A DNA stretch of 64,000 nucleotides, taken from assembly GCF_024661895.1 (NCBI RefSeq), contig NZ_CP102453.1:2294001-2358000 (forward strand), read 5' to 3'. Positions 10,628 through 43,273 of this stretch are shown one piece after another. The notes beneath the pieces are model-generated. The model was not told the origin of the DNA, did not search any database, and was given only the letters and a program-made list of their open reading frames with translations. Every line of letters begins with the position of its first letter. The first letter of the stretch is position 1. The stretch is from Fundicoccus culcitae (GTDB lineage: Bacteria; Bacillota; Bacilli; Lactobacillales; Aerococcaceae). Made by a program: the position numbers and the translations under genes.

Positions 10628-10645
10628 GACACCAAGAAACCATTT

Positions 10646-10660
10646 AATAAATATCACTGC
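10646..10660 (+). repeat. Copy of dispersed AATAAATATCACTGC motif
   Basis: Exact 15-base copy 18 bp after the glycosidase stop codon, the last copy before the eut island begins. Confidence 0.6.
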
Positions 10661-10738
10661 TACTTTCAATGTTGAAATATAATCGTGCAAAAAAGGTGCT
10701 GAGCAAAACGCCCTTTCTATCTTCTAACTAATTTTTAT

Positions 10739-11036: not shown

Positions 11037-11047
11037 TATTTCGATAG

Positions 11048-11190
11048 ATAAACCATGGAGTAGCTAGTATATGGAAGTTTGGTTAGATTCCAACACGGTC
11101 CCGCCACTGTAATAATGCCTTAGGTATTGAGTCAGGTCTTTATATTAGTTTGCTAATTATTAACGTTGCTGTTTCGAGGTAAGACAGTGT
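11048..11190 (+). promoter_or_regulatory. Cobalamin riboswitch (compact)
   Basis: Core elements in order: GGTTAGATTCC around 11083, CCCGCCACTGTAA around 11100-11113, and the B12-box-like GAGTCAGGTCT around 11139-11149. A following hairpin CTGT...ACAG with a TTCGAGGTAAG loop (about 11169-11188) is in the place of P13, whose loop kisses L5. The element is shorter than the one before btuF. Confidence 0.8.
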
Positions 11191-11380
11191 CGTAAGTTAT
11201 GCAAAGAAGCATAGGATTGAAACGGACTCATTTTTAGCAAAATGGAGGTCTCTATCAATATCACTCTAAATACAGAATTACTTGATTTTCAATGAAGAAT
11301 GAAAAACTAATGAAGGTTATAAGCCTGTATTGAGAGTGATTAAATACTAAAGTTATTTATGTTTTTAAATAGAAATTAGA

Positions 11381-12291: not shown

Positions 12292-12879
12292 ATGCAAATA
12301 TACACAAGAACAGGAGATAAAGGATTAACACGGATTATAGGAGGTTCACAAGTTACAAAAGATTCTTCACGTGTGACGGCCTATGGAACAATTGATGAAC
12401 TGAATAGTATTGTTGGAATTATTGTTAGTTTAGCTAAAGAATACGGTGATTTACAAGAAGAACTAATGGAGATACAACAATTATTATTTGATTGTGGAAA
12501 TGATTTGGCAAACCCAGAAAGTCCTAAAGAAGCTAGATTAAAAAAAGAAAATACACTTTGGTTAGAAAGCCGTATTGATGAATATTCTCAAAAAGCTCCA
12601 ACTATTGAGTCATTTATTTTGCCAGGTGGATCGTTAATAGCGAGTTATTTGCATTTTGCTAGAACAGTGGCAAGGAGATCCGAGAGAGAGATTGTATCTT
12701 TCCAGTGGAAAAATGATACTAATCAAGAAGTCATGCGCTTCATCAATCGACTATCAGATTACTTCTTTGCTTGCGCTCGATATGTTAATGCCAAAGAAGG
12801 TGTCAGTGATGTCCTTTATGAGCGTAGTGGTAAGGTGTTTCATACTGAAATAACAAAAGCAGATCTTCCTGAAATATAA
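12292..12879 (+). CDS. pduO: PduO-type corrinoid adenosyltransferase
   Basis: 195 residues with the PduO/MMAB N-terminal signature YTRTGDKGLTRIIGG (residues 4-18), AYGTIDELNS near 37, FDCGNDLANP near 69, and the substrate-site block ARTVARRSERE near 123 followed by FINRLSDYFFACAR. It transfers the adenosyl group of ATP to cob(I)alamin, making the cofactor for EutBC. The ribosome site GAGGAGG precedes ATG 12292. It is followed by an antitermination leader for eutG. An EutT-like protein is also present at 23503. Confidence 0.92.
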   Translation: MQIYTRTGDKGLTRIIGGSQVTKDSSRVTAYGTIDELNSIVGIIVSLAKEYGDLQEELMEIQQLLFDCGNDLANPESPKEARLKKENTLWLESRIDEYSQKAPTIESFILPGGSLIASYLHFARTVARRSEREIVSFQWKNDTNQEVMRFINRLSDYFFACARYVNAKEGVSDVLYERSGKVFHTEITKADLPEI

Positions 12880-17988: not shown

Positions 17989-19362
17989 ATGATATTAAAG
18001 ACAAGATTGTTTGGTCGTGTTTATGAGTTTAAGTCAGTACTTGAAGCATTGGCCAAAGCAAATGAAGAAAAATCAGGAGACGAACTTGCAGGGTTAGCTG
18101 CCGAGTCTGCTGAAGAGAGAGTTGCAGCAAAAACGGTTGTTGCAAATTTAAAACTTTCTGATATTTTCAATAATCCAGCAGTTCCATATGAAAAAGATGA
18201 AGTGACACGCATTATTATTGATAATGTGAATCTTAGAACATATGAGCGGATTAAAAACTGGACTGTCTCAGAATTAAGAGAATGGATCTTAAGTAACGAT
18301 ACAACCAATTATGATATTCATCGAATTTCAAATGGACTTACTTCGGAAATGGTGGCAGCGGTATGTAAAATAATGACCAATATGGATTTAATTGTAGCTG
18401 CTCAAAAAATCACCATTGAGAAAACAGCTAATACAACCATAGGTAGACCAGGGACTTTCTCAGCAAGATTACAACCTAACCATCCAACGGATAACATCGA
18501 AGGGATTATGGCTTCGGTGATGGAAGGATTATCCATGGGGATTGGTGATGCAGTAATAGGGTTGAACCCAGTTAATGATGGAACGGATAGTGTTAAACGC
18601 ATTTTACATGAGTTTAATGATTTTATAGAAGAATGGGAGATCCCGACTCAACACGTGGTCCTTGCGCATGTGGCGACACAAATGCAAGCAATGGAACAAG
18701 GCGCACCGACAGGACTTGTTTTTCAGTCAATTTCCGGTTCAGAAAAAGGCAATACCGCCTTTGGTATTGACGCAAAGATGCTTGCAGAAGCCAAAGATAT
18801 GGCCTTAAAAACTGGAACAGCTGTTGGACCAAACGTTATGTATTTTGAGACTGGACAAGGGTCTGAGTTGTCATCGGATGCCCATCACGATGTTGATCAA
18901 GTGACGATGGAGGCAAGATGTTATGGATTTGCTAAAGAATTTGATCCTTTCTTAGTTAACACAGTAGTAGGGTTCATCGGACCAGAGTATTTATATGACT
19001 CTAAGCAAGTTATTCGTGCCGGTTTAGAAGACCATTTTATGGGTAAACTAACTGGTATTTCGATGGGTGTAGATGTATGTTATACCAACCATATGAAAGC
19101 AGATCAAAATGATGCTGAGAATTTAGCGGTATTGTTAGGTGTTGCTGGTGTTAACTTTATAATGGGTATACCTAATGGGGATGACGTGATGTTAAATTAT
19201 CAAACAACCGGCTATCATGAAACAGCTACCATCCGTAGCTTACTTAACAAGCGTCCTATTAAAGAGTTTGAATTATGGTTGGAGAAAATGGGCTTTATGG
19301 ATAACGGTGCATTAACGAGTTTAGCTGGTGATGCGTCAGTATTCTTAAAAAATAAAAGATAG
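17989..19362 (+). CDS. eutB: Ethanolamine ammonia-lyase large subunit
   Basis: 457 residues, normal length for EutB, a TIM-barrel adenosylcobalamin enzyme. Recognisable blocks are [26 protein letters not shown] (about 160-185), [61 protein letters not shown] and [24 protein letters not shown]. It cleaves ethanolamine to acetaldehyde and ammonia with EutC. GGAGGTTG precedes ATG 17989. Confidence 0.96.
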
Positions 19363-19372
19363 GAGTGAGATA

Positions 19373-20332
19373 GTGGAACAAAAAGAATTGAAAGAACTTA
19401 TTCGTTCTATATTAACGGATTTTGTTGAAGACAACGAAATCTTAGTAGCTAAGGAACCTAATCATCATTCCGCTGAAGTGAAAGATGAAGCCCCAGTTGA
19501 TGTTAATCTTATTGAAACACCTTCGAAAACCCCAGATAACACTGAAATTGAAGACAAAGTTTTAGATGATATCACTGAGGTAAATATTCGAGAACAATTC
19601 TTAGTTGAGAATGCTCAGGACAAAGATGGCTATTTAAGAATGAAGAAAAACACACCTGCTAGATTGGGTCTTGGTCGTGCAGGAACTCGTTATAAAACTG
19701 AACCTGTTCTTCGTTTTAGAGCAGACCATGCAGCTGCACAAGATGCTGTCTTCTCATATGTTGATGATGAGTTGATAAAAGAGATGAATTTCGTTCCTGT
19801 TGAAACAATGTGTGGAGATAAAGATACATATATTACACGACCAGACTTAGGTAGAAAATTTTCAGACGAAGAAATGAAAAAAATTACCGATACGATACCA
19901 AAAAATGCAGATATCGCAATTGTTGTTGGAGATGGTTTAAGTTCTGCAGCAATTGGAGCGAACATACGTGATATTATTCCATCAATTAAGCAGGGATTAA
20001 AAACACATAACTTAGATTTTGGAGATATCGTTTTTGTTAAACATTGTCGTGTACCAGCAATGGATCCAATTGGTGAGTATACTGGAGCAAAAGTAGTTTG
20101 TCTACTTATAGGAGAGCGTCCGGGATTAGTAACAGCAGAATCAATGAGTGCATATGTCGCTTATAAACCAACAATTGGAATGCCAGAAGCTAGAAGAACA
20201 GTTATTTCAAATATCCATGGCCAAGGTACTCCTGCCGTAGAAGCTGGAGCGTATATTGCAGATTTAATTAAAGAGATGCTAGACGTTAAGGCTTCGGGAG
20301 TTGATCTAAAGAAAGTCTCTAAGGGGGGCTAA
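19373..20332 (+). CDS. eutC: Ethanolamine ammonia-lyase small subunit
   Basis: 319 residues. The C-terminal two thirds are typical Eut[86 protein letters not shown]. The N-terminal 100 residues are a longer, acidic, low-complexity arm that begins with an amphipathic helix ([17 protein letters not shown]) of the kind that targets EutBC to the microcompartment. Starts at GTG 19373 behind AGGAGTGAG. A helix plus acidic linker makes this protein slightly longer than usual. Confidence 0.95.
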
Positions 20333-27914: not shown

Positions 27915-27926
27915 TAGGTGATTAAA

Positions 27927-28415
27927 ATGAAAACTAAACAAATTGTACTATTAAGTTGCTTAATCGCTTTAAGTATAATAGGTGGCTATGTTAAAATATT
28001 CGGTTCAATTGCATTGGATTTAGCACCTGCAATTTTAGGAACCATTTTATTGAACCCCTTATTAGGAGCAATTCTTGCTTTTATGGGTCATATAATTTCA
28101 GCGATAATCGCTGGATTTCCTTTATCATTTATAGTTCATCTTATTATTGGTGTTATGATGGCATTAACGATGTTTATTTTTGGAAATATTCGTCAACTCG
28201 GGAAGAAGAAAAAATCAATTATTATTCTTAGTGATATCATAGCTTTTATTTTCAATGTATTTATTGCACAGATTCCATTAATCCCGATATTAGGGTTGCC
28301 TACTTTAGCTGCTTTGACGCCACCGTTAATCTTAGGGTCTATTGTGAATATTGTAGTGGCTGAATTGGTTTATGTTGCACTACCAGAAAATACAGTTATG
28401 AGGATCGAAATCTGA
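27927..28415 (+). CDS. cblT: ECF-type substrate-binding membrane protein, probable alpha-ribazole transporter CblT
   Basis: 162 residues, five or six hydrophobic segments, with the build of an ECF transporter S-component (ALSIIGGYVKIFGSIALDLAPAILGTILLNPLLGAILAFMGHIISAIIAGFP). ATG 27927 is used because GGTGATT lies just before it; GTG 27918 is part of that site. The neighbouring alpha-ribazole phosphatase-like gene and a CblS-like kinase further on are the known companions of CblT in Listeria and Geobacillus, which imports alpha-ribazole. A generic ECF S-component for another vitamin cannot be excluded from the protein alone. Confidence 0.72.
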   Translation: MKTKQIVLLSCLIALSIIGGYVKIFGSIALDLAPAILGTILLNPLLGAILAFMGHIISAIIAGFPLSFIVHLIIGVMMALTMFIFGNIRQLGKKKKSIIILSDIIAFIFNVFIAQIPLIPILGLPTLAALTPPLILGSIVNIVVAELVYVALPENTVMRIEI

Positions 28416-28975
28416 TGAATATATTTTTTGTTCGTCATGGTGAGACAGAATTAAATAGACTGAAGAAATACTATGGGATTACAGATGTTCCACTAAATTT
28501 GACCGGAATTAACCAAATGAAGAGTTTAGCCATTAAACTTAAGAAGTATAAATTCGATCGAATCATTGTTTCTGGGTTACAGCGAACAGCACTAAGTGCG
28601 AATGTAATCATAAACCAAAATAATATACAGAATATTAAAATAGAAACGATTGACAATTATAATGAAAGAAATTTTGGAACTTGGGAAAAACTTGATGCTG
28701 ATGAAATTGAATTACTTTATCCTGAAGTGTGGAAAAGTTTCGTAAATAATCCATTAAATACCAATCCTTTAGATGCTGAATCATATGAAGATTTCCAAGA
28801 TAGGGTAAACAAGGAGTTCATCCATTTAATAAATTCTGTTAATGAATCAGATAACATCTTATTTATAGGACATGGCGGGGTAATTCGTGAGATAATTTCA
28901 AGTTTCTTTGAAAAAGATATTGAATATTGGGATATAAAAATTGAAAGCGGTATGATATATACATATTCCATATAA
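28415..28975 (+). CDS. cobC: CobC-like alpha-ribazole(-5'-phosphate) / cobalamin-phosphate phosphatase
   Basis: 186 residues of the histidine phosphatase family. The catalytic motif is FFVRHGETELNRLKKYYG (His about residue 8), with the Arg of SGLQRTALSA, the Glu of ERNFGTWEKLDADEIE, and the second His in LFIGHGGVIREI. Placement within a cobamide-salvage cluster, one base overlapping cblT, indicates the CobC role: removing the phosphate left after CobS joins alpha-ribazole phosphate to the corrinoid. Family members with other substrates look the same in motif, so the assignment relies on context. Confidence 0.8.
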   Translation: MNIFFVRHGETELNRLKKYYGITDVPLNLTGINQMKSLAIKLKKYKFDRIIVSGLQRTALSANVIINQNNIQNIKIETIDNYNERNFGTWEKLDADEIELLYPEVWKSFVNNPLNTNPLDAESYEDFQDRVNKEFIHLINSVNESDNILFIGHGGVIREIISSFFEKDIEYWDIKIESGMIYTYSI

Positions 28976-29007: not shown

Positions 29008-29036
29008 TTGTGAAAGGAGGAATATTGATTTTAAAT
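29008..29036 (+). promoter_or_regulatory. Candidate promoter of the btuF-cob operon
   Basis: TTGTGA (29008-29013), a 17-bp spacer and TTAAAT (29031-29036), each matching four of six consensus bases. A start near 29043 would fall just before the P1 stem of the riboswitch, which supports it. Confidence 0.4.
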
Positions 29037-29045
29037 TGAAATATG

Positions 29046-29302
29046 CAATATATTCGCTTAACAGCCGATAATTTATCGAGGGAATCAGATGTGAATTCTG
29101 AACTAACCCAGTAACCGTGAAGTAGACGAAAGGATTTTAAAGCCACTGTGAAAATGGGAAGGCAATCCTAGTAGGATGAAACTAAGTCGGGAGACCTGAA
29201 TATATTGATTGTATTATTTACCGCTGGGGATAGGTGTAAGTTCTTTCAAATTGAATATAATATTCTGACAACATCTATTCCTTCAAAAAGATATGGAGGA
29301 TA
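29046..29302 (+). promoter_or_regulatory. Cobalamin riboswitch of the btuF-cob operon
   Basis: The aptamer is closed by a perfect 10-bp stem CAATATATTC (29046-29055) / GAATATATTG (29198-29207). Inside are GGGAATCAG around 29080, AAAGCCACTGTGAAAATGGG around 29140-29159, and the B12 box AAGTCGGGAGACCTG (29184-29198). Downstream, GGGATAGGTGT (29227-29237) can pair with ACATCTATTCC (29271-29281), or TATTCCTTC (29276-29284) can pair with GGAGGATA (29295-29302), which is the btuF ribosome-binding site. The two pairings exclude each other, so translation would be switched. Confidence 0.88.
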
Positions 29303-29305
29303 AAA

Positions 29306-30244
29306 ATGAAAAAGTTTAAAACAATTTCTATAAAAAGTTTATTGGTTATTTTAGTCACTTTGTTGGGGGTTAATTTATTAACAACTTCAATTCAAGTTCA
29401 TGCGACAGATACAGAAGAAATTACTATAACAGATATGGCGGGACGAGAAATTGTACTTGAAGGCCCAGCTACACGTATTGTTGTTTTACAACCGTCAAAT
29501 GCTGAAATATTATTCTCGTTAGGTGCAGGAGACGTGATTATTGGTAGAGGTGAATACGTAGACTATCCAACAGAAGAAGTTGAAGATATCCCTCAATTTG
29601 CAACTGGTGAAAACATGAACTTAGAAGAAATCATTGCTTTAAATCCAGAAGTTGTAATCACTACAACAATGAATCAATCTGAGGATCAAATGAGTCAGTT
29701 AGAAGAAACGGGCATCAAAGTTATTACTACAGATGCTTCAACAATTGAAGAGGTATATGATTCTATTGAACTATTAGGACTAATAGTTGGATATGAAGAA
29801 GAAGCTAACTTATTAATAGAAGATATGCAAAATACTTTCGAAGAATATAGTCAAAAAGCCGATGAAGGTAACAAAGAAAATTTAAGTATTTATTACGAAA
29901 TTTCACCTTTAGAATTTGGTCTATGGACGGGTGGTCAAAATACTTTCATGGATGAGATAGGTCAAATGCTAAATCTAGAAAATGTATTCAGTGAAGTTGA
30001 TGGATGGGCTGAAATCTCAGAAGAACAAGTTCTAGAAAAAAATCCTGATTATATCATTACAACAACTATGCCATTTGAAGGCTCTAATCCAGTTGAAGAA
30101 ATATTAGGACGTAATGGTTGGGATGCTATATCTGCAATTGAATCTGGTAATGTTTTTCAAGCGAATTCAGATGAATTTACTAGACCTGGACCTCGGTTAA
30201 TGGATGCTATAATAACTCTGTATGAGTTTGTCTATGGTGAATAA
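29306..30244 (+). CDS. btuF: Corrinoid ABC transporter substrate-binding protein BtuF-like
   Basis: 312 residues. A signal peptide is visible (KKFKTISIKSLLVILVTLLGVNLLTTS, cleavage near VHA-TD); no lipobox Cys, so it is either a secreted or an N-terminally anchored protein. The periplasmic-binding fold of the helical-backbone (BtuF/FecB) type follows: ITDMAGREIVLEGPATRIVVLQPSNAEILFSLGAGDVIIGRGEYVDYP, then ALNPEVVITT. The upstream B12 riboswitch makes corrinoid the likely substrate over iron-siderophore. A perfect hairpin follows the gene, before btuC. Confidence 0.85.
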   Translation: MKKFKTISIKSLLVILVTLLGVNLLTTSIQVHATDTEEITITDMAGREIVLEGPATRIVVLQPSNAEILFSLGAGDVIIGRGEYVDYPTEEVEDIPQFATGENMNLEEIIALNPEVVITTTMNQSEDQMSQLEETGIKVITTDASTIEEVYDSIELLGLIVGYEEEANLLIEDMQNTFEEYSQKADEGNKENLSIYYEISPLEFGLWTGGQNTFMDEIGQMLNLENVFSEVDGWAEISEEQVLEKNPDYIITTTMPFEGSNPVEEILGRNGWDAISAIESGNVFQANSDEFTRPGPRLMDAIITLYEFVYGE

Positions 30245-30251
30245 ACACTTT

Positions 30252-30281
30252 AATAAACCTGCTATTTTTAGCAGGTTTATT
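30252..30281 (+). terminator. Intercistronic hairpin between btuF and btuC
   Basis: Perfect 13-bp stem AATAAACCTGCTA (30252-30264) / TAGCAGGTTTATT (30269-30281) with a TTTT loop. The U-tract after it is poor (TTTATTTG), so it may act as a 3' stabiliser or a partial terminator that raises the binding protein over the permease. Confidence 0.75.
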
Positions 30282-30300
30282 TGTCGGGAGATTGATTATT

Positions 30301-31296
30301 ATGAGGAAGTATAGTCTAGCAATTACTATTTATCTAGCTGTTTTTATTTTATGTGTGAGTATTGGGAGTGTAACGATTCCTATAGAGGATATTCTTCATT
30401 CTTTTAAAGCATTGATTACTGGTCAAGAACTAAATAATCAATATGACCGTATTATATATTATATACGAATCCCGAGAGTTATTGTGGCTGGTTTAGTCGG
30501 GGTTGCGCTCGCGCTTTCAGGAGCAATTATGCAAGGGCTGTTAAAAAATCCATTAGCTGATGGGTCAACCTTAGGGATTTCTAGTGGGGCTTCATTAGGG
30601 GCTGTAATTGCTATTGTAACGGGATTTAACATACCTAGACTTCCTTATTATGGGACCGTTATTATGGCGATTATATTTGCTTTTGGATCCTTAGTAGTAA
30701 TTCTTAGTATATCTTATCGAATCGATAAAACCTTATCTAACAATACTGTAATTTTAGTAGGGGTTATCTTTTCAATGACAGCTAGTAGTTTGATTAGTTT
30801 GTTAATAGCTATATTTAATAATGATATACAGAGAATTATATTCTGGACCATGGGATCATTATCAGGTTCGACTTATGAGAATGCAACTCTTTTATTAGTA
30901 GCAATAATTATTTTTGGAGTAATCGCTCTAACCAACGCTGAGGAGCTGAATGCTTTTTCTTTAGGTGAAGATCAAGCTAGAAATTTAGGTGTTGATGTTA
31001 AGAAAATACGAATCCTCTTATTCTTATGTTCATCTGCGCTGATTGGGACAGCAGTTGCAGTAGGAGGAAATATTGGATTCGTAGGATTAATTATCCCACA
31101 TATAACTAGATTAATTTTTGGGTCTAATCACAAAATTGTACTCCCTATGACTTGCTTTATAGGAGCTATATTCTTAATGATTACCGATTTAATATCTAGG
31201 ACTTTGTTTAGTCCAACAGAATTACCCATTGGGGTAATTACTGCATTGATTGGTTCAGTATTATTTCTAGTTATATTCTCTAGAAGGAGGTCCTAG
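30301..31296 (+). CDS. btuC: Corrinoid ABC transporter permease BtuC-like
   Basis: 331 residues with eight to ten membrane segments, FecCD/BtuC family: RIPRVIVAGLVGVALALSGAIMQGLLKNPLADGSTLGISSGASLGAV near the N-terminus and GNIGFVGLIIPHITRLIFGSNHKIVLPMTCFIGAIFLMITDLISRTL, ELPIGVITALIGSVLFL near the end. ATG 30301 follows GGGAG by 10 bp; the TTG at 30292 is too close to it. Works with BtuF and BtuD. Confidence 0.9.
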   Translation: MRKYSLAITIYLAVFILCVSIGSVTIPIEDILHSFKALITGQELNNQYDRIIYYIRIPRVIVAGLVGVALALSGAIMQGLLKNPLADGSTLGISSGASLGAVIAIVTGFNIPRLPYYGTVIMAIIFAFGSLVVILSISYRIDKTLSNNTVILVGVIFSMTASSLISLLIAIFNNDIQRIIFWTMGSLSGSTYENATLLLVAIIIFGVIALTNAEELNAFSLGEDQARNLGVDVKKIRILLFLCSSALIGTAVAVGGNIGFVGLIIPHITRLIFGSNHKIVLPMTCFIGAIFLMITDLISRTLFSPTELPIGVITALIGSVLFLVIFSRRRS

Positions 31297-31300
31297 GTCA

Positions 31301-32056
31301 ATGTTCGAAGTGAAGAATCTTAATATTAGCTATGGAAATAAGAATGTGCTTAACGATATTAGTTTTGAAGTAAAAAAGAATGATTGGTTTATGATCTTAG
31401 GTCCAAATGGTGTTGGCAAGTCATCTTTAGTTAATGCTATATCAGGATCACTGTCATATGAAGGGACGATTAAGTTTAAGGGAATAGATATTAAGAATTT
31501 ACCCTCAAAGATTAAGGCTCAAAACATAGGGATTTTAACGCAACAGCATAATGTAACTTATCCATATTCTGTTGAAGAAATTGTAAGCTTAGGCCGGTAT
31601 GCTTATCGTAAGAGTTTATTTAGTAGCTTATCAGAGAATGATAATATGCAGATTGAAGAAGCCTTGCTAATTACAGGATTGAATAAGTATCGTGAAGACT
31701 CAATATTGTCACTTTCAGGTGGGGAATTACAAAGAGTATTCTTAGCACAAGTATTAGCCCAAGATCCTAAAATTCTTATCTTAGATGAGCCTGCAAACCA
31801 TTTGGATTTGGCTTATCAAGAGCAAATATTCACTACAATTAGTGAGTGGTTACAAAAAGATGACCGCTGTGTCATAAGTATTATCCATGATTTAAGCGTA
31901 GCCAAGTACTATGGAAATCGTGGAATACTCTTACACAACAAACAATTAATAGCTAAAGGTAATATTGAAGATGTTCTTGAGAGTGAAAATCTTGAACGTG
32001 CTTATCGGATAAATGTAAAAAGTATCATGAATGAAAGATATGGATTGTGGATATGA
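31301..32056 (+). CDS. btuD: Corrinoid ABC transporter ATPase BtuD-like
   Basis: 251 residues: Walker A GPNGVGKSS (about 36-44), Q-loop LTQQH, signature LSGGELQRVFLAQVLAQDP, Walker B ILILDEPANHLDLAYQ, H-loop IIHDLS. The FepC/BtuD subfamily pattern and the order btuF-btuC-btuD under a B12 riboswitch define it. ATG 31301 follows AGGAGG; its stop overlaps the next ATG. Confidence 0.9.
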   Translation: MFEVKNLNISYGNKNVLNDISFEVKKNDWFMILGPNGVGKSSLVNAISGSLSYEGTIKFKGIDIKNLPSKIKAQNIGILTQQHNVTYPYSVEEIVSLGRYAYRKSLFSSLSENDNMQIEEALLITGLNKYREDSILSLSGGELQRVFLAQVLAQDPKILILDEPANHLDLAYQEQIFTTISEWLQKDDRCVISIIHDLSVAKYYGNRGILLHNKQLIAKGNIEDVLESENLERAYRINVKSIMNERYGLWI

Positions 32057-33174
32057 AAGAAATATCAGAACAAAAACATGGAGGAAATTTGAAGAAAATC
32101 CAACGTGACTTGAAACTAACTAATTCGAATTTAATTGACTTTAGCGCCAATATAAATCCATTAGGAATGCCTGAACTATTTAAACATATTATTATAGAAA
32201 ATCTTGCTGAAATCGAGAAATACCCAGATTATACATATAGTGACTTAAAGCTAGCTTTATCAAATCTATATAATTTTAACGAAAAATCCATTATCATTGG
32301 TAATGGAGCTGAGGAGCTTATTCACCAAATGATGAGCATTCTTCCTCAGAACATTGTTATAATCGAACCTACGTTTTCTGAATATCGAAAAGCGGCTCAA
32401 AACCATAACAAGAATATTTTAACTTATATTCTTAACGAGAATGATCATTTTATATTTAGTGAAGATTCTTTTTTTAACTTTATTAATTGTCAATCCTTTG
32501 TGCATAAGGAACAGGGTGTGGATGGGTATCAAGGAGCGGTATTCTTATGTAATCCAAATAATCCGACTGGGCAATTTATTAATAAGAAAAAAATAGAATC
32601 GTTAGCAAAATTTTTACAGGAGAGAAATATTTTGCTGATATTGGATGAATCCTTTATAGAGTTTATGAATAATAGTGAAGTTCATTCTATGTTGGGAGAA
32701 ATTAAATACAATAATCTAATGATTATTAGATCACTTACAAAGTTTTATGCAATTCCAGGACTAAGATTAGGCTTTTGTAAAATTAGTGATCATAAATTAA
32801 AAGATGACTTCGAACGACTCCAAAGCACTTGGAATATTAATACATTCGCTGTCCTTTGTGGGGAATCAATAAATCAACTTAATGATTACCGGATAGAAAG
32901 TATTAATTATTATCAAAAAGGAAAAATTAAGTTACAGAGATCATTGGAAAAGTACAATGAACTTCAGATCTATCCTAGTTATGTAAATTTTTTTCTAATT
33001 AAATGTTCGAAGATAAATTTATATGAAGCATTACTATCACATGGAATAATAATTCGTTCATGTAGTAATTTTATTGGATTAGACAATTCATACTCCAGAA
33101 TTGCTGTAAGGACTACTTCTGAGATTGAAAAACTTATCAATTGTATGGAAGTGATAATGAAAAATTATGGGTAA
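32053..33174 (+). CDS. cobD: CobD-type L-threonine-O-3-phosphate decarboxylase
   Basis: 373 residues of the fold-type I PLP aminotransferase family closest to HisC/CobD: EQKHGGNLKKI and LIDFSANINPLGMPELF at the start (typical of CobD), IGNGAEELIHQM, CNPNNPTGQFI, LDESFIEFM, and the PLP lysine in IRSLTKFYAIPGLRLG (about residue 231). It makes (R)-1-aminopropan-2-ol phosphate for the cobamide linker. ATG 32053 overlaps the btuD stop (ATGA). The adjacent kinase PduX makes its substrate. Confidence 0.88.
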   Translation: MKEISEQKHGGNLKKIQRDLKLTNSNLIDFSANINPLGMPELFKHIIIENLAEIEKYPDYTYSDLKLALSNLYNFNEKSIIIGNGAEELIHQMMSILPQNIVIIEPTFSEYRKAAQNHNKNILTYILNENDHFIFSEDSFFNFINCQSFVHKEQGVDGYQGAVFLCNPNNPTGQFINKKKIESLAKFLQERNILLILDESFIEFMNNSEVHSMLGEIKYNNLMIIRSLTKFYAIPGLRLGFCKISDHKLKDDFERLQSTWNINTFAVLCGESINQLNDYRIESINYYQKGKIKLQRSLEKYNELQIYPSYVNFFLIKCSKINLYEALLSHGIIIRSCSNFIGLDNSYSRIAVRTTSEIEKLINCMEVIMKNYG

Positions 33175-34033
33175 TAAAGTGGTTAAAGTAAGTTTCCCCG
33201 CTTCATGCGGTGAGTTAGTTCAAGGAAAAATAAACAATGAAAGATTTCTCTGTTCATACGCAATTAATTGTTACACTCATGTCACTATTAAGAAAGTAGA
33301 AGAAGGAAGTAATATTTTATTGCCAGAAAAAGCACAAAAACTTGTAAATTTTACAAAAAAATTTATAAGAGATTCTGAAAAAAAGTGGGAAAAAATAGAT
33401 ATTCAAATAGACAACTCTATTCCATACGAAAAGGGTATGGGAAGTAGTACTGCTGATTTAGTTAGTCTTTCAATTGCTTTATCTGAATACTTTGATCTTA
33501 ATTGGAATCCAACATTCATTGCTAAGGTACTCACTCAAATAGAAGCAACAGATAGCCTTGTTTTTCCATCGCTGACTTTGATGAATCCAGATACAGGTGA
33601 GAGTATTTTAAATTTTACTCAAGATAAATATTATTCAGTTGCATGCATCATCCCATCGGAAAGTATTAACACGAGTACAATAATTTCAAGCTATAGTGAA
33701 AGAGATTGGAATATAAAAGCATATTCTGATTTATTGAATCAAACAACTAAAGCTTTCGATTGTCATTCACTTGATCAACTAATTAAAGTTGCTGAATTAT
33801 CTGCACTATTAAATGAAAAAATCTTAACTAAGCCATTCTTAGAAGGTCTAATTAAATTAAAAAGTATTCAAGGAATAAAAGGGTTGAATGTCTCTCATAC
33901 CGGAACCGTCATTGGGATAATATATGATGAAAGTGTCATTAATAAAATAATGGTTACAAATCTAATTCAATCAATAGATTTAGTAAGCTATTATCAGATA
34001 AAACATTACAAGATGGTTCTTCCGTACCATTGA
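33167..34033 (+). CDS. pduX: PduX-type L-threonine kinase (GHMP family)
   Basis: 288 residues with GHMP kinase features: PASCGELVQGKINNERFLCSYAINCYT at the start (CGELVQG is typical of PduX) and the ATP loop IPYEKGMGSSTADLVSLSIAL near residue 88. PduX phosphorylates L-threonine to feed CobD. Start overlaps cobD by 8 bp, so kinase and decarboxylase are coupled. Confidence 0.87.
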   Translation: MGNKVVKVSFPASCGELVQGKINNERFLCSYAINCYTHVTIKKVEEGSNILLPEKAQKLVNFTKKFIRDSEKKWEKIDIQIDNSIPYEKGMGSSTADLVSLSIALSEYFDLNWNPTFIAKVLTQIEATDSLVFPSLTLMNPDTGESILNFTQDKYYSVACIIPSESINTSTIISSYSERDWNIKAYSDLLNQTTKAFDCHSLDQLIKVAELSALLNEKILTKPFLEGLIKLKSIQGIKGLNVSHTGTVIGIIYDESVINKIMVTNLIQSIDLVSYYQIKHYKMVLPYH

Positions 34034-34071: not shown

Positions 34072-35028
34072 ATGAAACTTGTTATTAGTATTGGTGCAGC
34101 ATATCTACTTGATTTTTTGTTTGCTGATCCATATAGTTGGCCGCACCCAGTAAAATTAATGGGAAAATATATATCTTGGTTTTTAAAGCGATACAACACT
34201 CCATCAAAAAGTATTTTTTTACAATATATGATAGGCTTACTCTTGAATGTGTCACTTATATTTTTAATTATCATTTTGAGTCTAATCTGTCTAATAATTG
34301 CATATCAAATGAATTATTATGTGGGTTGGGCAATAGAAATATACATGATATATACATGCTTTAGTGCGAAGGGCTTAGCAATTGAAGCTGAAAAAGTAAA
34401 GGATGAACTCACTCAAGGTGGAGTAGTTAAGGGAAGAAAGCAAGTAGCGATGATAGTGGGGCGAAACACAGAAAATCTAACAGAGGAAGAAATAATCAAA
34501 GCAGTCATTGAAACAGTCGCTGAGAATACTAGTGATGGTTTTGTAGCCCCTTTGTTTTACATTGTTTTATTAGGTCCGATAGGTGGAATGATCTACAAAG
34601 CAATTAATACTCTAGATTCAATGGTTGGCTATAAACAGTTTCCTTATAAATATATAGGCTTTTTCTCTGCCAAATTTGATGATTTGGTAAATTGGATTCC
34701 AGCAAGATTAAGCTGGATTTACCTAGTAATAGCTAGTTTTTTGTTAAGAATGAATTGGAAAAATGGTATAAGGATAGGCTTAAGAGATAGAAAAAATCAT
34801 AATAGCCCTAATAGTGCTTTTCCGGAATCTGTTGTAGCAGGAGCTTTAGATATCCAATTAGGTGGGACACATGAGTATCACGGCAAGGAAGTATATAAGC
34901 CCACGATAGGAGATGATAATAGATCGCCGTCAATAAAAGATATTGATAAAGTTAATCTGTTATTATTTTGTACATCAATATTAAGTGTCGTAACAATGAG
35001 TATCATTCTTCTAACTATCAGAATTTAA
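34072..35028 (+). CDS. cbiB: Adenosylcobinamide-phosphate synthase CbiB
   Basis: 318 residues of the CbiB/CobD membrane-protein family: AYLLDFLFADPYSWPHPVKLMGKYISW, then GRNTENLTEEEIIKAVIETVAENTSDGFVAPLFYIVLLGPIGGMIYKAINTLDSMVGY, and a NSPNSAFPESVVAGALDIQLGG motif. Four to five membrane segments. It joins aminopropanol phosphate to adenosylcobyric acid. AGGAGGTGAG precedes ATG 34072. Confidence 0.93.
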   Translation: MKLVISIGAAYLLDFLFADPYSWPHPVKLMGKYISWFLKRYNTPSKSIFLQYMIGLLLNVSLIFLIIILSLICLIIAYQMNYYVGWAIEIYMIYTCFSAKGLAIEAEKVKDELTQGGVVKGRKQVAMIVGRNTENLTEEEIIKAVIETVAENTSDGFVAPLFYIVLLGPIGGMIYKAINTLDSMVGYKQFPYKYIGFFSAKFDDLVNWIPARLSWIYLVIASFLLRMNWKNGIRIGLRDRKNHNSPNSAFPESVVAGALDIQLGGTHEYHGKEVYKPTIGDDNRSPSIKDIDKVNLLLFCTSILSVVTMSIILLTIRI

Positions 35029-35058: not shown

Positions 35059-36399
35059 ATGGGGAAATCGATAATGATTCAAGGTACAGCTTCAGATGTT
35101 GGGAAAAGTTTAATTGTCACTGGATTATGTCGCATATATTCAGACCGAGGAGTTAAAGTTTTTCCTTTTAAATCACAGAATATGGCATTAAATTCCTATA
35201 AAATAGCTAATCGTGATGAAATTGGTCGTGCACAATCAGTTCAAGCTGAAGCGGCTAGACGTTTTCCAGAAATTCGAATGAACCCAATATTATTAAAGCC
35301 AGTAATGGATTCAAAGACTAAAGTTATATTTAAAGGAAAGCATATAAGTACGGTTGAAGCGAATGACTATTATAAAGATAAAAAAAAGCTAAAAGCAGAA
35401 ATAAAAAATATTTTCGAGGAAATTACTATCGAAAACGATTTAATTGTAATTGAAGGGGCGGGTAGTCCTGCTGAAATTAATCTAAATAAAGATGATTTCG
35501 TAAATATGGGGATGGCTGAAATTGCTGACTGTCCAGTATTACTTGTTGCAGATATTGATCGTGGAGGAGTTTTTGCCTCAATTTTTGGAACGATTAAACT
35601 ATTAAGTGAGAAAGAACAGAGTAGAGTTAAGGGAATTATTATTAATAAGTTTAGAGGGGACATCAGCTTACTCGAGGACGGTTTGAGAATGATTGAAGAG
35701 TTAGTTGATATACCAGTAATTGGTGTTGTTCCATATATTGATTTGGCAATTGATAGTGAAGACTCTTTAGCCTTAAGTGAAATGATGGTTGAAGCCGATG
35801 TAAGTAAGGATATCGATGTAGCTGTACTAATGATGGATTTTATGACGAACTTCAATGAATTTAATAGTCTGTTGGTGTTCGATGATGTCTCTGTTCGTTT
35901 TGTAAAGAAGAAAAAGCAATTAAGAAATCCGGATGTACTTATCATCCCAGATAGTGAAGATATTTTAGGTAATCGTACACGACTTCAAGAAGATGGGTGG
36001 ATGGAGATTATAGATAACCTTGTTGATACAGGGACGCTTACTCTAGTCTTTGGAAAGAGTTATGAAATATTGAAACCAGAGCAACAATTGTCGGCAGTTA
36101 AACTTATCGAGGACCAAGTCAAAGTAGATGACTACAAAGTAAACTTACAAACTGATTGGCACCATCTTAAGGAGAAGAATATTATACATGTTGAATTTCC
36201 CGATATTTTTGAATACTTGAATTGGACGACAAACTTATTGAATTTTATTCAATTAAAGAATAGTAGAGCTCCAATAGAACCGCCAAATTTTACATACAAG
36301 GAATTTAAAGATCAGCAGTATGATTTATTAGCTAATCATCTTAGAAAACACCTTGATTTAAATGTATTAGATGAAATCATTAGTGGTAAAAAAGGTTAA
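35059..36399 (+). CDS. cobQ: Cobyric acid synthase CobQ/CbiP with degenerate glutaminase domain
   Basis: 446 residues, shorter than the usual 480-510. The N-terminal synthetase is intact: IMIQGTASDVGKSLIVTGLCRI P-loop, FKSQNMALNSYKI, ARRFPEIRMNPILLKP, VIEGAGSPAEINL, VLLVADIDRGGVFASIFGT. The C-terminal type I amidotransferase domain is altered: where CobQ has GICGGYQML, this protein has VFGKSYEIL near residue 335, without Cys, and where it has GYEIHMG it has DYKVNLQ, without His. The final YDLLANHLRKHLD is normal. The frame is open throughout. It should not hydrolyse glutamine, but could use free ammonia, which EutBC produces, or be inactive. Confidence 0.88.
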   Translation: MGKSIMIQGTASDVGKSLIVTGLCRIYSDRGVKVFPFKSQNMALNSYKIANRDEIGRAQSVQAEAARRFPEIRMNPILLKPVMDSKTKVIFKGKHISTVEANDYYKDKKKLKAEIKNIFEEITIENDLIVIEGAGSPAEINLNKDDFVNMGMAEIADCPVLLVADIDRGGVFASIFGTIKLLSEKEQSRVKGIIINKFRGDISLLEDGLRMIEELVDIPVIGVVPYIDLAIDSEDSLALSEMMVEADVSKDIDVAVLMMDFMTNFNEFNSLLVFDDVSVRFVKKKKQLRNPDVLIIPDSEDILGNRTRLQEDGWMEIIDNLVDTGTLTLVFGKSYEILKPEQQLSAVKLIEDQVKVDDYKVNLQTDWHHLKEKNIIHVEFPDIFEYLNWTTNLLNFIQLKNSRAPIEPPNFTYKEFKDQQYDLLANHLRKHLDLNVLDEIISGKKG

Positions 36400-36505: not shown

Positions 36506-37252
36506 ATGCAATACAGAGACTTAAGTATAACAACAATTGCCGATGAGTATATTGTGGTTGCTTGTGATACCTCGTCAGCTATTGGAGAAAAAGAGAATGA
36601 TATGATTAGTGTTCCAGCAGAAATAGCAAGTGCGTATTGTGTTAGGGGACCTCTCTTAGAACTTCTGTGTATAGGTGCAAAGCCGTTACTAGTAGTTAAT
36701 CTCTCAGGTAATGAAATGAAACCTACAGGAGAAAAATATATTAGAGGAATTCAACAAGAACTGATAAAAGCAGGATACCCCAATCTATCAATTAATGGGA
36801 GCACTGAAGAGAACATGTTAACTACCATGAGTAGCATAGGAGTAACTATTTTAGGCAGATCGAGTCAAGAACAATTAAAGTGGAAGTCAGTCATGCCGGG
36901 AGACATTGTCTTTCAATTAGGTACTCCATATGTTGGAGAAGAATTATTAAGACACTTTGATGATATTATCTCATATGATGATATAAAGAAATTACACCAG
37001 TGGGGTAATCGAATTTCAGAGATAGTTCCTGTAGGCTCTAAAGGGAGTTGGGATGAGGCAAATCAGTTGGCTCAGATGAATAATCAAATCTTTCGACCAA
37101 TGAAGGATGATGTTCTAAAAGCAATGTGTGAACAATCAGCTGGACCTAGTACAACAGTAATTGTTGCAGGGAAATTAGAGTTATATCAAGACTTATGTGA
37201 GACATTTAAAGATGTATTCATTATAGGCGAAATGGAGGCTGTCAATGAGTAA
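36506..37252 (+). CDS. cblS: PurM-like alpha-ribazole kinase CblS
   Basis: 248 residues resembling the AIR synthase (PurM/SelD/ThiL) fold: VVACDTSSAIGEKENDMISVPAEIASAYCVRGPLLELLCIGAKPLLVVNLSGNEM, with the DTSSAIG metal/ATP region at 20-26. In Geobacillus and Listeria the PurM-like CblS phosphorylates alpha-ribazole, which with CobS bypasses CobT. The match is by fold pattern and by position just before cobU-cobS and with a CblT-like transporter in the same cluster. A 106-bp spacer separates it from cobQ. Confidence 0.75.
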   Translation: MQYRDLSITTIADEYIVVACDTSSAIGEKENDMISVPAEIASAYCVRGPLLELLCIGAKPLLVVNLSGNEMKPTGEKYIRGIQQELIKAGYPNLSINGSTEENMLTTMSSIGVTILGRSSQEQLKWKSVMPGDIVFQLGTPYVGEELLRHFDDIISYDDIKKLHQWGNRISEIVPVGSKGSWDEANQLAQMNNQIFRPMKDDVLKAMCEQSAGPSTTVIVAGKLELYQDLCETFKDVFIIGEMEAVNE

Positions 37253-37880
37253 TATTATATTGGTATCTGGACCTGTTAAAAGTGGTAAGTCTAGTTTTGC
37301 TGAAAAATTAGTTAAAGGATTTAACTCCGAAAAAGTGGCGTATATTGCGACACAAGCAAATGAATTTCTTGATGAGGAGTTTAAGCGACGTATTGTTTAT
37401 CATCAAGCTCAAAGGTCATCTAATTGGGTTACTATCGAACAATTCAAGTATTTGGACAAATTTATCAGAGTAAGTGCAATTACAGAGAAATATCAATCAA
37501 TACTTTTAGATTGTGTAACTCTATGGATTAATAATTTATTTTTTGACCATTTGGAAGATTACTACAAGAATAAATATAAAGTGAATCAACTTCCTAATCA
37601 TTTTACCTTAGATGACTTTGTAGAGACATTTACCAATCAAGACATTGAGTACATGCATCGTTATCTGTATAGGGAAGCACATCAACTTGTCAAAGAGATG
37701 AAGAGAACTGACGTAAACTATGTAATTGTGACTAATGAGGTAGGTTGGGCTATCATGCCTCATACTAAGATAGGAAGAATATTTGTAGACTATTATGGGA
37801 CAATTAACCAATATATTGCTAGTGAAGCAGATGAGGTATATATAGTTGAGTTAGGAATCCCAAGGAGAATTAAACCGTGA
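37245..37880 (+). CDS. cobU: CobU adenosylcobinamide kinase/guanylyltransferase
   Basis: 211 residues: P-loop LVSGPVKSGKSSFAEKL (about 5-21), AYIATQANEFLDEEFKRRIVYHQAQRSSNWVTIE with the GMP-accepting His near residue 47, LLDCVTLWINNLFF, and VTNEVGWAIMPHTKIGRIFVDYYGTINQYIA. It activates adenosylcobinamide to its GDP form. A central insertion (about residues 105-135) makes it somewhat longer than enteric CobU. It overlaps cblS by 8 bp and cobS by 4 bp. Confidence 0.93.
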   Translation: MSNIILVSGPVKSGKSSFAEKLVKGFNSEKVAYIATQANEFLDEEFKRRIVYHQAQRSSNWVTIEQFKYLDKFIRVSAITEKYQSILLDCVTLWINNLFFDHLEDYYKNKYKVNQLPNHFTLDDFVETFTNQDIEYMHRYLYREAHQLVKEMKRTDVNYVIVTNEVGWAIMPHTKIGRIFVDYYGTINQYIASEADEVYIVELGIPRRIKP

Positions 37881-38632
37881 TAAAATATTTAATAAATTAT
37901 TTTCAATTTTTCTCACGAATTCCTATTAACTATCGAATAGAAGATCCAATAAACGTTTTTAAAGAGGGTGTTACTTTTTTAGGTGTTTATGGCTTAGTTT
38001 ATGGTACTATACCAGCTCTAGTTTACTTTATTTTAAGACTAAGAATAGATGTTATTGAAGCATGGCCGTTAATACTATTGCTGGATGTCATTCTAACAGG
38101 TGCTTTTCATCATGATGCATTTGCTGACACTATGGATGGATTATTCTCAGGCCGTAGCAAGGAACGAAAGCTTGAGATAATGAAAGATTCACGCATAGGT
38201 ACTAACGGTGCTGTAGCATTAATATTATATTATATTATTATACTAATAATGGGTGTGAAACAACTAAATGAAGTAAATTCAATAAAAGATGAAATTCTAT
38301 TTATTCTTTCATTTTTTATGATATCAAGAAGTGCGATGACACTAACTTTCAGGGACGTAGTCTATAAAAGTTCAAGTCAAGAAGGTTTAGGTAATATTCT
38401 CATAGGAATTAGTACAACAAAGTTAGTTACAGCGCAGATTATTGCCCTAGTATACATATCTTTAATCTATGGTTATACGGGGGCAATAATATATTGTATT
38501 GTTATTATCGTAATAGAATCGTATCGAAGATTTATCTATAAGGAAATCGGCGGTATAAATGGTGATACTTCGGGGGCTGCGGTTCTTATTAGCCAGATGG
38601 TTTGGCTCATTGCTAGAGCAATAATAATATAA
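37877..38632 (+). CDS. cobS: CobS adenosylcobinamide-GDP ribazoletransferase
   Basis: 251 residues, multi-spanning membrane protein: FFSRIPINYRI at the start, then TGAFHHDAFADTMDGLFSGRSKERKLEIMKDSRIGTNGAVAL, the hallmark of CobS (acidic residues binding metal), and GGINGDTSGAAVLISQMVWLIA at the end. It joins alpha-ribazole phosphate to AdoCbi-GDP. Starts with GTG at 37877 in a GTGA overlap with cobU. Last gene of the island. Confidence 0.94.
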   Translation: MIKYLINYFQFFSRIPINYRIEDPINVFKEGVTFLGVYGLVYGTIPALVYFILRLRIDVIEAWPLILLLDVILTGAFHHDAFADTMDGLFSGRSKERKLEIMKDSRIGTNGAVALILYYIIILIMGVKQLNEVNSIKDEILFILSFFMISRSAMTLTFRDVVYKSSSQEGLGNILIGISTTKLVTAQIIALVYISLIYGYTGAIIYCIVIIVIESYRRFIYKEIGGINGDTSGAAVLISQMVWLIARAIII

Positions 38633-39380: not shown

Positions 39381-40298
39381 TTATTTATCAGCTTTCTCAA
39401 ACGGCACACGGCGGTCTTGTTTTTCTGTCCAAGGAATCGGCGAAGTTTTGCCGCGTTCCATATAATCAATAATTTTTTCACCTTTTTCATCGTACTGAAT
39501 CACTGCATAGTGAGGATCATGATAAAGGAATAATTTGTAGCCATTTTCAAAGGCTTCATTCAACCACTTTGTCTTGGCCGCAATTGAATCCATCGGATAA
39601 TCATCCACCGCTGCTACCCATAGCGGATTTTTCTGCGAATGGTTCAATAAAATATCCCCCATATGCAACATCACTTCGTCATTTTGGGTTAGCTTAATCA
39701 AGCTATGCCCACGGCTGTGGCCACCGGTTAAATACATGGTAATCCCTGGTGTTACTTCCAAAGTATCCTCAAAAGTCACCACTTGATCTTGAACAGCTTC
39801 CCAGTTTTCTTTTAAGTAAGTACCCCGCGTCCGTGCATTAGGATGACGCACTTCATCCCATTCAATTGCACTCATATAAATAACGGCGTTAGGGAAGGTT
39901 GAAGAAAACTCACCTGTTTCTGGATCTAGGGTTGTTAAACCACCTGAGTGGTCGTTGTGCATATGCGTCATCATTACCACATCAATGTTTTCTGGCTTAA
40001 GGTTCAATTCTTCTAATGATTGAATGACATTATTATCATTCAGCACACCATTATTGCGACGTTGTTTGGCATCCATTCGATCCGTAGCTAGACTAGCATC
40101 AATCAAATAATTTTTGTCCTTGTATTGGATAAGAATCGGATCAGTAAATTCCACTAATTGATTATCTTCATTCGATGGATAGTAACGTGACCAAACAACT
40201 TTAGGGACTGGTCCAAAGAGTGTTCCAGCATCAGTGGTTGTGTCAGCACCATCCAACCAAGTTAGCGTCATATCGTGAAAATGGTATTGGTAGGTCAT
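39381..40298 (-). CDS. MBL-fold metallohydrolase (lactonase-like)
   Basis: 305 residues. The di-zinc signature THMHNDHSGG (HxHxDH) is near residue 113; a further metal His is in YLTGGHSRGHS and an Asp in HMGDILLNHS; the last ligand region is YHDPHYAV. The overall pattern is that of AHL-lactonase-like and other MBL proteins of about 300 residues. Substrate unknown. ATG 40298 is chosen because AGGAGG lies 7 bp before it; the other ATG at 40304 is one base from the ribosome site. A decayed second copy of its 3' end is nearby. Confidence 0.82.
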   Translation of the reverse strand: MTYQYHFHDMTLTWLDGADTTTDAGTLFGPVPKVVWSRYYPSNEDNQLVEFTDPILIQYKDKNYLIDASLATDRMDAKQRRNNGVLNDNNVIQSLEELNLKPENIDVVMMTHMHNDHSGGLTTLDPETGEFSSTFPNAVIYMSAIEWDEVRHPNARTRGTYLKENWEAVQDQVVTFEDTLEVTPGITMYLTGGHSRGHSLIKLTQNDEVMLHMGDILLNHSQKNPLWVAAVDDYPMDSIAAKTKWLNEAFENGYKLFLYHDPHYAVIQYDEKGEKIIDYMERGKTSPIPWTEKQDRRVPFEKADK

Positions 40299-40513
40299 TA
40301 GCATTCCTCCTATGGGTTTAAATTTAAATATTGTGTTGGTGTTATATTTGTATTTTACCTAATGGTGGGGTGGAATGCTAGGGCAGTGACATGAAATATG
40401 ATAGCATACACTTAAGAATGTTGATGAATATATCTATCTTTATCAAATGAATGATAGATAAAATAATTTATTGGAAACAATTTTTATAAATTAAGGTAAG
40501 GGTTATCAAAGAG

Positions 40514-40524: not shown

Positions 40525-40558
40525 ATTGATAAATGAATTTAATGTAGGAGTAAAAGAT

Positions 40559-42061
40559 ATGGCTGAAACGGTAAATAGTGCAAATTTAGGTTTTGAAAAA
40601 GAAATTTTCAAGGCTGCTGATAAACTAAGAGGAAACATAGATGCTGCTGAATATAAGAATGTGGTTTTAGGATTAATATTCTTAAAATATATCTCAGATA
40701 GCTTTTTAGAGAAATATGAAGAATTAGTTAGCGAAGGAGATGGCTTTGAAGAAGATCGTGATGAATATTTAGCAGAAAATATCTTCTTTGTACCTGAGAA
40801 GGCTAGATGGAATTATATTGCAAGTCAAGCGATGACACCAGAAGTTGGTCAAGTGATTGATAATGCAATGGTTGCTATTGAAGAAGAAAACAGTCGTTTA
40901 AGAGGAGTATTACCTAAGAATTATGCGCGCCCGGAATTAGATAAAAGGCGTCTTGGAGAAGTAGTAGACTTATTTAATAATTTAAAATTGAAAGAACATG
41001 GCGATTCAAAAGATATTTTAGGTCGTACATATGAGTATGCGATTGCACAATTTGCTTCGCTTGAAGGACGAAATGCGGGAGAATTTTATACTCCTTCAAG
41101 CATCGTAAAGACTCTTGTTGAAATCCTACAACCTTACGAAGGTCGTGTTTATGATCCTTGTTGTGGTGCGGGGGGAATGTTTGTGCAATCAGCGAAATTT
41201 GTTGAACAGCATCAAGGAAGGATTAATAATCTATCTATTTATGGTCAAGAAGCAAATGCGAATACTTGGAAACTAGCACAAATGAACCTTGCAATTCATG
41301 GCCTTGAAGGAGATTTAGGGCAAGGTTCTGCAGATACTTTCTTCAATGATCAACACCCATCAATGCGAGCTGATTTTATCCTTGCTAATCCTCCATTCAA
41401 TATGAGAAATTGGGGAGGAGACAAGTTAGCTGAAGATAGCCGTTGGCAATACGGGATACCTCCTGAAGGTAATGCGAACTTTGCATGGATGCAACATATG
41501 ATTTATCATCTAGCTCCAAAAGGTAAGATGGGATTAGTTTTAGCAAACGGGTCTTTATCTTCAAGTGGTAGAGAAGGGGAGATAAGAGCAAATATAATTA
41601 AAGATGACCTAGTTGAATGTATCATTTCACTACCAGGAAATTTGTTTTATTCGACTCCTATTCCTGTTTCCTTATGGATTATAAATAAGAATAAAACTCA
41701 AAAAGAGAAAACACTATTCATTGATGCTAGAAATTTAGGTAAAATGGTTACTCGTAAATATCGCGAGTTTGAAAATAGTGACATAGAAAGAATTGTATCT
41801 AAGTATAATAAATTTAATGCAGGGTTAGAAATAGAAGAATTAGGTTTTTCTTATGTAGCTTCGTATCAAGAGATTAAAGAAAATGGATATGTACTTACTC
41901 CTGGGCGATATGTCGGACTTGAAGATATCAAAGATGATGGTGAGCCATTTGAAGAGAAAATGGAAAGACTGACTGGAGAATTACGAGATTTGTTTGAAGA
42001 ATCCAATCAATTAGAAGAACTAATAAAAGAACAATTAGGTGGAATTGGTTATGGATTTTAA
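40559..42061 (+). CDS. hsdM: Type I restriction-modification methyltransferase HsdM
   Basis: 500 residues. N-terminal HsdM_N domain (NLGFEKEIFKAADKLRGNIDAAEYKNVVLGLIFLKYISDSF), then the N6-adenine methyltransferase core with GEFYTPSSIVKTLVEIL, SAM site YDPCCGAGGMFVQSAKF (about 209) and catalytic NPPF in ILANPPFNMRNWGGD (about 290). ATG 40559 follows TAGGAG by 8-9 bp; an upstream in-frame TTG is not needed. It overlaps hsdS by 11 bp. Confidence 0.95.
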   Translation: MAETVNSANLGFEKEIFKAADKLRGNIDAAEYKNVVLGLIFLKYISDSFLEKYEELVSEGDGFEEDRDEYLAENIFFVPEKARWNYIASQAMTPEVGQVIDNAMVAIEEENSRLRGVLPKNYARPELDKRRLGEVVDLFNNLKLKEHGDSKDILGRTYEYAIAQFASLEGRNAGEFYTPSSIVKTLVEILQPYEGRVYDPCCGAGGMFVQSAKFVEQHQGRINNLSIYGQEANANTWKLAQMNLAIHGLEGDLGQGSADTFFNDQHPSMRADFILANPPFNMRNWGGDKLAEDSRWQYGIPPEGNANFAWMQHMIYHLAPKGKMGLVLANGSLSSSGREGEIRANIIKDDLVECIISLPGNLFYSTPIPVSLWIINKNKTQKEKTLFIDARNLGKMVTRKYREFENSDIERIVSKYNKFNAGLEIEELGFSYVASYQEIKENGYVLTPGRYVGLEDIKDDGEPFEEKMERLTGELRDLFEESNQLEELIKEQLGGIGYGF

Positions 42062-43253: not shown

Positions 43254-43273
43254 ATAAATCAGGAGGTGATTCC

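Follow-up and report, generated by a model that had tools for sequence, protein, structure and literature searches.

The window analysed here is a 64,000-nucleotide stretch of the Fundicoccus culcitae genome in which cbiP (cobQ) sits in a cobamide neighbourhood, with cbiB upstream and cobU and cobS downstream. The genes and features that surround it, beginning with those of the preceding eut run, are as follows:

12292..12879, plus strand: PduO-type cobalamin adenosyltransferase (domain match)
17989..20332, plus strand: eutB and eutC, ethanolamine ammonia-lyase (EutB and EutC matches confirmed)
27918..28975, plus strand: ECF S-component (probable CblT) and CobC-like histidine phosphatase, closing the eut run (Pfam; NCBIfam CobC below its cut-off)
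29035..29217, plus strand: cobalamin riboswitch that precedes btuF and the rest of the corrinoid salvage operon (Rfam RF00174, 80.9 bits)
29306..32056, plus strand: btuF, btuC and btuD, corrinoid uptake (BtuF by Peripla_BP_2, with NCBIfam BtuF below its cut-off; BtuC and BtuD read from translations)
32047..33174, plus strand: cobD-like threonine-phosphate decarboxylase (TIGR01140, 274.3, below its cut-off of 290.55)
33167..34033, plus strand: GHMP kinase, probably a PduX-type L-threonine kinase (GHMP_kinases_N; PduX inferred from context)
34072..35028, plus strand: cbiB (Pfam, NCBIfam)
35059..36399, plus strand: cbiP/cobQ, encoding a 446-aa cobyric acid synthase whose glutaminase domain is defunct (open reading frame, Pfam, NCBIfam)
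36506..37252, plus strand: protein resembling AIR synthases, probably the alpha-ribazole kinase CblS (AIRS matched weakly, 16.1 bits for a cut-off of 24; homologues in the salvage clusters of relatives)
37245..37880, plus strand: cobU (Pfam, NCBIfam)
37877..38632, plus strand: cobS (Pfam above cut-off; NCBIfam models below theirs)

A B12 riboswitch also precedes the eut run (11047-11197). Downstream of the B12 cluster, the translations indicate type I restriction-modification-like genes (40526-46390), and a protein with a metallo-beta-lactamase-type HxHxDH motif is encoded on the minus strand at 39381-40304. The gene content resembles that of the Acbr phenotype, defined in the excerpted text of PMC6593275 as CbiP without CbiA and predicted there to salvage cobyrinate diamide: CbiP, CbiB, CobU, CobS and an adenosyltransferase occur without CbiA, as in the window genome. 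The glutaminase domain goes unmentioned in that text. The window genome differs in that its lower-ligand activation looks like that of CblT and CblS, the latter being a name used in the excerpted text of PMC6461909.

The window CbiP: dyad, constraint and predicted fold

The cbiP frame is open from its ATG across 35059-36399, as the first-pass annotation had read it, and its 446-residue product scores above the cut-offs of both NCBIfam cobyric acid synthase models (NF001989, 453.1 bits against 273; TIGR00313, 357.2 bits against 309.9). The best stretches of the two models stop at residues 327 and 337, respectively, and Pfam GATase_3 matches through columns 1-77 of 196 only (28.0 bits against a cut-off of 27); the complete GATase_3 domain with a Cys-His dyad that characterises a class I glutamine amidotransferase is absent. 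A phmmer search of PDB sequences gave no match at E 0.001, and the best Foldseek matches, dethiobiotin synthetase and CTP synthase, indicate the fold class only. The parts of the gene can be set out as follows:

35059..35769, plus strand: synthetase domain, residues 1-237, with P-loop GTASDVGKS (89 of 92 invariant positions retained)
35770..36246, plus strand: what is left of the glutaminase domain, about residues 238-396 (6 of 38 invariants; C-terminal half deleted or disordered)
36052..36054, plus strand: Gly332, replacing the nucleophile Cys (alignment with relatives)
36199..36201, plus strand: Pro381, where the LHGIF motif has its catalytic His (alignment; His identified from GatD H189-G190)
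36247..36396, plus strand: C-terminal tail, about residues 397-446, two helices (47.2 bits against the tail profile of intact relatives)

That VFGKSYEIL stands in the place of GICGGYQML had been proposed from the sequence at first pass, and so it aligns, with Gly332 where the nucleophile Cys should be. The accompanying equation of DYKVNLQ with GYEIHMG does not hold, in that DYKVNLQ aligns opposite an earlier segment, EKVTTQV, and the segment that bears GYEIH is deleted from the window protein. Bearing in mind that, in the excerpted text of PMC5871853, the GatD dyad consists of C94 and H189, with Gly190 directly after H189, we assign the catalytic His of CbiP to the LHG (LHGIF) motif; by the same comparison, the His of GYEIH is not the catalytic one. 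In the window protein, LHG reads FPD, and no replacement Cys or His is found at the aligned dyad positions. Hence the claim that both dyad residues are gone survives the misassigned motif, and their loss supports the prediction that glutamine use should be abolished. The nucleophile Cys, the GYEIH His and the LHG His read C, H, H in 46 of 46 intact relatives in the alignment, so the changes in the window CbiP are not due to chance. The full-length copy of G738 (genomes and loci carry our own labels), together with those of G421 and G586, is without the GYEIH His and retains both the Cys and the LHG His; since the former His, judged by GatD, is not the catalytic one, these three were counted as intact in our trees. 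In the window genome the dyad is intact in the stand-alone GatD, as it is in five other genomes checked, so the loss is specific.

We define as invariant those positions at which at least 95% of the 46 intact relatives have the same residue. The synthetase half, said in the first-pass annotation to retain its P-loop and substrate motifs, does so, with 89 of 92 invariants kept against 42% identity to the consensus at variable positions. In the glutaminase half, 6 of 38 invariants are kept, or 6 of the 28 that can be aligned, which is no better than that half's own variable-position background of 30%; three intact rows counted alongside kept 37 of 38. These paired figures mean that constraint persists in the synthetase half only. 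The AlphaFold2 model of the window CbiP (mean pLDDT 86.2) has synthetase blocks mostly above 84, with values of 64-75 at residues 131-150 and 231-240, and falls below 50 at residues 342-371, where there are no strands. By comparison, the model of an intact relative, L012 (mean 90.7), has no residue below 50 and several strands in the corresponding region. Two C-terminal helices, mostly confident, are found in both models. From sequence and model together, the glutaminase fold of the window CbiP is judged to have collapsed, its second half being gone; the protein thus appears to be a synthetase without a functional glutaminase, the form expected of an ammonia-dependent amidoligase.

The tail is a less uniform element. 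By strict count it has three invariant columns, of which the synthetase-only forms described below show none or one. Of 24 C-termini scored against a tail profile of the intact relatives, 22, among them the window's, exceed the best of 120 shuffles (80 reported, maximum 6.2 bits), L175 and L180 falling below the highest shuffle; the match is weak (5-30 bits) in many of the synthetase-only forms.

Cys-less CbiP and the corrin pathway within the family

CbiP is carried by eight of the 76 genomes of the window's family, and in six of these, spanning five genera, the Cys is lost: the window genome (G000), G030, G048, G015, G031 and G058. The forms in G073 and G074 are intact. Cys loss common to six genomes rules out a sequencing error or an isolated mutation. 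The LHG His is lost as well in five of the six, G015 being the exception. A tree of 70 synthetase-domain rows groups the six in a single clade (99/95) that is separate from the intact family members, and the clade is recovered also when a doubtful row, L188, is omitted; L118 (from G031) and L119 sit on long branches in both trees, which leaves their pairing unsure. The stop-to-stop frames of the relatives measure 511 (G015), 506 (G030), 490 (G048), 415 (G031) and 271 aa (G058). Asn occupies both dyad places in G030 and G048, both places are deleted in G031 and G058, and the G058 protein, the shortest form in the family, consists of synthetase and tail, with the glutaminase domain gone. This series, from near full length to glutaminase-free, is a range of forms in which the order of steps is not proven. 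The Cys motif was present at 78 of 80 genome-contig loci, the exceptions being Facklamia lactis DSM 111018 and Ignavigranum ruoffiae DSM 15695, counterparts of G030 and G048. Fewer synthetase invariants are kept by G031 (76 of 92) and G058 (83 of 92), both of which lie on longer branches; Asp146 and Gly151 are kept by the window CbiP and its five family relatives, and Asn45 by all but G058. In the sample of the order, 38 of 395 genomes matched CbiP, with G130, G163, G184, G191, G223 and G252 outside the sequences read.

CbiC and CbiA are present in G030, G048, G015 and G058; genome searches found neither in the window genome or in G031. Each of the first four has one CbiP match at E <=1e-20, the Cys-less form, and, unless the pathways are idle, this sole copy found has to function without hydrolysing glutamine itself. 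The G030 gene adjoins genes that match cbiL, cbiK, cobA, cbiJ, cbiH, cbiG, cbiF, cbiT, cbiE and cbiD (cbiK and cbiG below curated cut-offs), and the neighbours in G048 and G015 look, by appearance, like those of G030. The window genome, being without CbiC and CbiA, must salvage the substrate, and any role of its copy would be in salvage.

These observations bear on whether the window CbiP is a decaying relic, that is, whether corrin-ring synthesis was lost, CbiP became unneeded and the glutaminase half was the first to go. The absence of CbiC and CbiA from G000 is what such a history would leave behind. We nevertheless consider it unlikely, given that 89 of 92 synthetase invariants are kept although all six clade members are without the Cys, and that four of the six clade genomes have CbiC and CbiA. 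Loss of function, which had been put forward from the outset as the alternative to ammonia use, is for the same reasons (a constrained synthetase, a six-genome clade, four members with CbiC and CbiA) improbable as a general account.

CbiA itself keeps its nucleophile motif, AECGG, in G030, G048 and G015. In G058 the CbiA (L138, ORF 1447-2865, minus strand) reads GETGG, the nucleophile Cys having been replaced by Thr (codon ACG), and the His of YLH is Tyr, judged by eye. From its sequence, this CbiA is a candidate for a second ammonia-dependent B12 enzyme. No GATase_3 match above cut-off other than this CbiA was found in G058.

Could glutamine still be used by way of a separate glutaminase acting in trans, either a stand-alone GATase_3 protein such as GatD or the glutaminase of CbiA? 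GatD with an intact dyad occurs in the window genome, G030, G031 and G015, and MurT-GatD, a split lipid II amidotransferase, indicates that such domains can act as subunits: according to the excerpted text of PMC5871853, its GATase_3 glutaminase, which is related to that of CobQ, is separate from its ligase. There, unlike in the window CbiP, the glutaminase has been retained as a subunit, not lost. Against this, no glutaminase-like gene is found among the operon genes scanned, and the sole GATase_3 protein above cut-off in G058, in a search that covered this family, is the Cys-less CbiA, which argues against a GATase_3 glutaminase in trans. We regard such an arrangement as very unlikely.

Recurrence of glutaminase loss across Bacilli

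The CobQ model has matches in 212 of the 398 genomes of our class sample. The CbiP sequences that were read came from 52 class-sample genomes besides the window (two sets of 23 and 30, which overlap in G540), together with the order genomes G078 and G121; class genomes outside this set are mostly higher scoring, so our counts of losses are minima and the intact rows do not make up a random set. Among 23 low-scoring class genomes re-examined, 16 contain synthetase-only frames of 274-327 aa, proteins for which we know of no name. Their genes adjoin homologues of cbiB, cobD and cobS in 14 of the 16 cases, the loci mostly also having btu genes, cobU, an adenosyltransferase and probable cblT and cblS, and CbiC was not found in 15 of the 16 genomes. 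Like the window protein, they lack a working glutaminase, keep synthetase and tail, and (14 of 16) belong to a salvage context; they differ from it in that the whole domain has been removed, in their separate origins on the tree, and in joint changes at positions 45, 146 and 151 (14 of 16). We also found full-length CbiP with Cys replaced by Gly in G455, G540, G414 and G665, genomes in none of which CbiC occurs.

On the tree without L188 there are five changes, all five forced by supported branches; with L188 (from G755, with a branch of 2.96, and possibly not a true CbiP) there are six changes, of which five are forced. As read from these sequences, glutaminase loss arose at least four more times in Bacilli, besides the loss in the family. 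The dN/dS of the synthetase part is 0.05-0.15 in five of five synthetase-only pairs, three of which share one gene, and that of the linker plus tail is 0.13-0.58, indicating weaker constraint; the L113-L114 pair gives no value, its dS being saturated. By these ratios, the synthetase-only forms are under purifying selection, which is not what would be expected of relics. Decay might draw support from the finding that, outside the family, glutaminase loss accompanies CbiC absence (19 of 20 rows with loss against 18 of 38 that kept the domain; Fisher p 0.0004), in a test that ignores kinship, uses non-random intact rows and has G738 in both groups. A kinship-corrected test on independent pairs, however, was not significant for glutaminase loss against CbiC.

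Position 146 (window numbering), whose Asp is reported to affect amidation order in Salmonella CbiP, is Glu instead of Asp in 14 of the 16 synthetase-only forms (L173, L175-L187). Glu146 also occurs in some full-length CbiPs with an intact dyad. It might be supposed that the synthetase has been repurposed in salvage, re-amidating partly hydrolysed corrinoids instead of making cobyric acid, and the salvage neighbours of these forms (14 of 16), the absence of CbiC from 15 of 16 genomes and the joint change at the three positions (14 of 16) all lend themselves to that reading. Asp146 and Gly151, on the other hand, are kept in the window protein and its five family relatives, and Asn45 in all but G058, and the presence of Glu146 beside an intact dyad likewise speaks against a link to repurposing. 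We find this proposal quite improbable.

In one genome, G738, where CbiC is present, a full-length CbiP occurs together with a synthetase-only CbiP that is encoded in a salvage operon (L187 and L146). This pair may be a natural test case for a division of labour between the two forms.

Proposed use of ammonia and its possible sources

The closest described protein is the glutamine-hydrolysing cobyric acid synthase CbiP/CobQ (EC 6.3.5.10), with which the window protein shares the synthetase domain, the tail and the cobamide neighbourhood, and from which it differs in lacking the Cys-His dyad and the second half of the glutaminase fold. We propose that the window CbiP is probably an ATP-dependent cobyric acid synthase that no longer hydrolyses glutamine and uses free ammonia or ammonium directly; that it is active, and that NH3 is its nitrogen donor, are what we infer from the preceding observations. 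Its substrate in the window genome would be taken up from outside, either as cobyrinate diamide or as some other under-amidated corrinoid. The synthetase half would bind ATP and this corrinoid, an acyl phosphate would form on a corrinoid side chain (a mechanism that we give from general knowledge), and free ammonia would replace channelled ammonia at the synthetase site. CobQ uses ammonia at high Km. In this way the enzyme would amidate b, d, e and g, the side chains that are still free in adenosylcobyrinic acid a,c-diamide; the excerpted text of PMC10449867 likewise gives b, d, e and g for CbiP, and that of PMC7242693 prints them as b, d, e and f. CobB, according to the excerpted part of a review (PMC8123684), accepts glutamine or ammonia.

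Extending this proposal to the other genomes, we lean towards recurrently evolved ammonia-dependent cobyric acid synthases in Bacilli, which would range from dead-domain proteins to synthetase plus tail, would serve corrin-ring genomes in one family and salvage elsewhere, and in at least one genome, G058, would include a CbiA and a CbiP that are both off glutamine. Carbamoyl phosphate synthetase I and ammonia-dependent NAD synthetase likewise work on ammonia after the loss or absence of glutaminase function, their synthetase folds and substrates being unrelated to those of CbiP. Several points count against the ammonia-fed reading: G015 retains the LHG His; the branches of G031 and G058 are longer and their synthetase invariants fewer; the window genome is without CbiC and CbiA, and decay of its copy after pathway loss is possible; and the linker and tail of the synthetase-only forms are less constrained, the tail match being weak in many.

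CbiP is usually described as glutamine-hydrolysing, and annotation by family name hides what is probably an ammonia-fed variant; our search of the open-licence literature found no report of a CbiP without a glutaminase. An ammonia-fed CbiP would tie B12 synthesis to the availability of ammonia, and the reduced forms offer a natural series from which to learn what parts an amidotransferase requires. They also bear on the role of CbiP in salvage-only genomes, which in the excerpted text of PMC6593275 is so far predicted from genomes.

The ammonia supply need not be EutBC. A link to ammonia released by EutBC, attractive when the window was first annotated, is not borne out by the family: EutB occurs in nine of 76 genomes, namely three of the six with Cys-less CbiP (present in G000, G048 and G058; absent from G030, G015 and G031), both of those with intact CbiP (G073 and G074), and four without CbiP. 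On this distribution within the family, we reject EutBC as the selective cause of glutaminase loss. PduC occurs in five of the 76 genomes at E <=0.001, two of them above cut-off (G065 and G074), and in none of the family genomes with Cys-less CbiP. In G031 (L118), the Cys-less cbiP lies about 7 kb from genes (3-2798 and 9703-10947) for an arginine deiminase, an ornithine carbamoyltransferase and a kinase of amino acids that is probably carbamate kinase, and this arginine deiminase set would be another source of ammonia.
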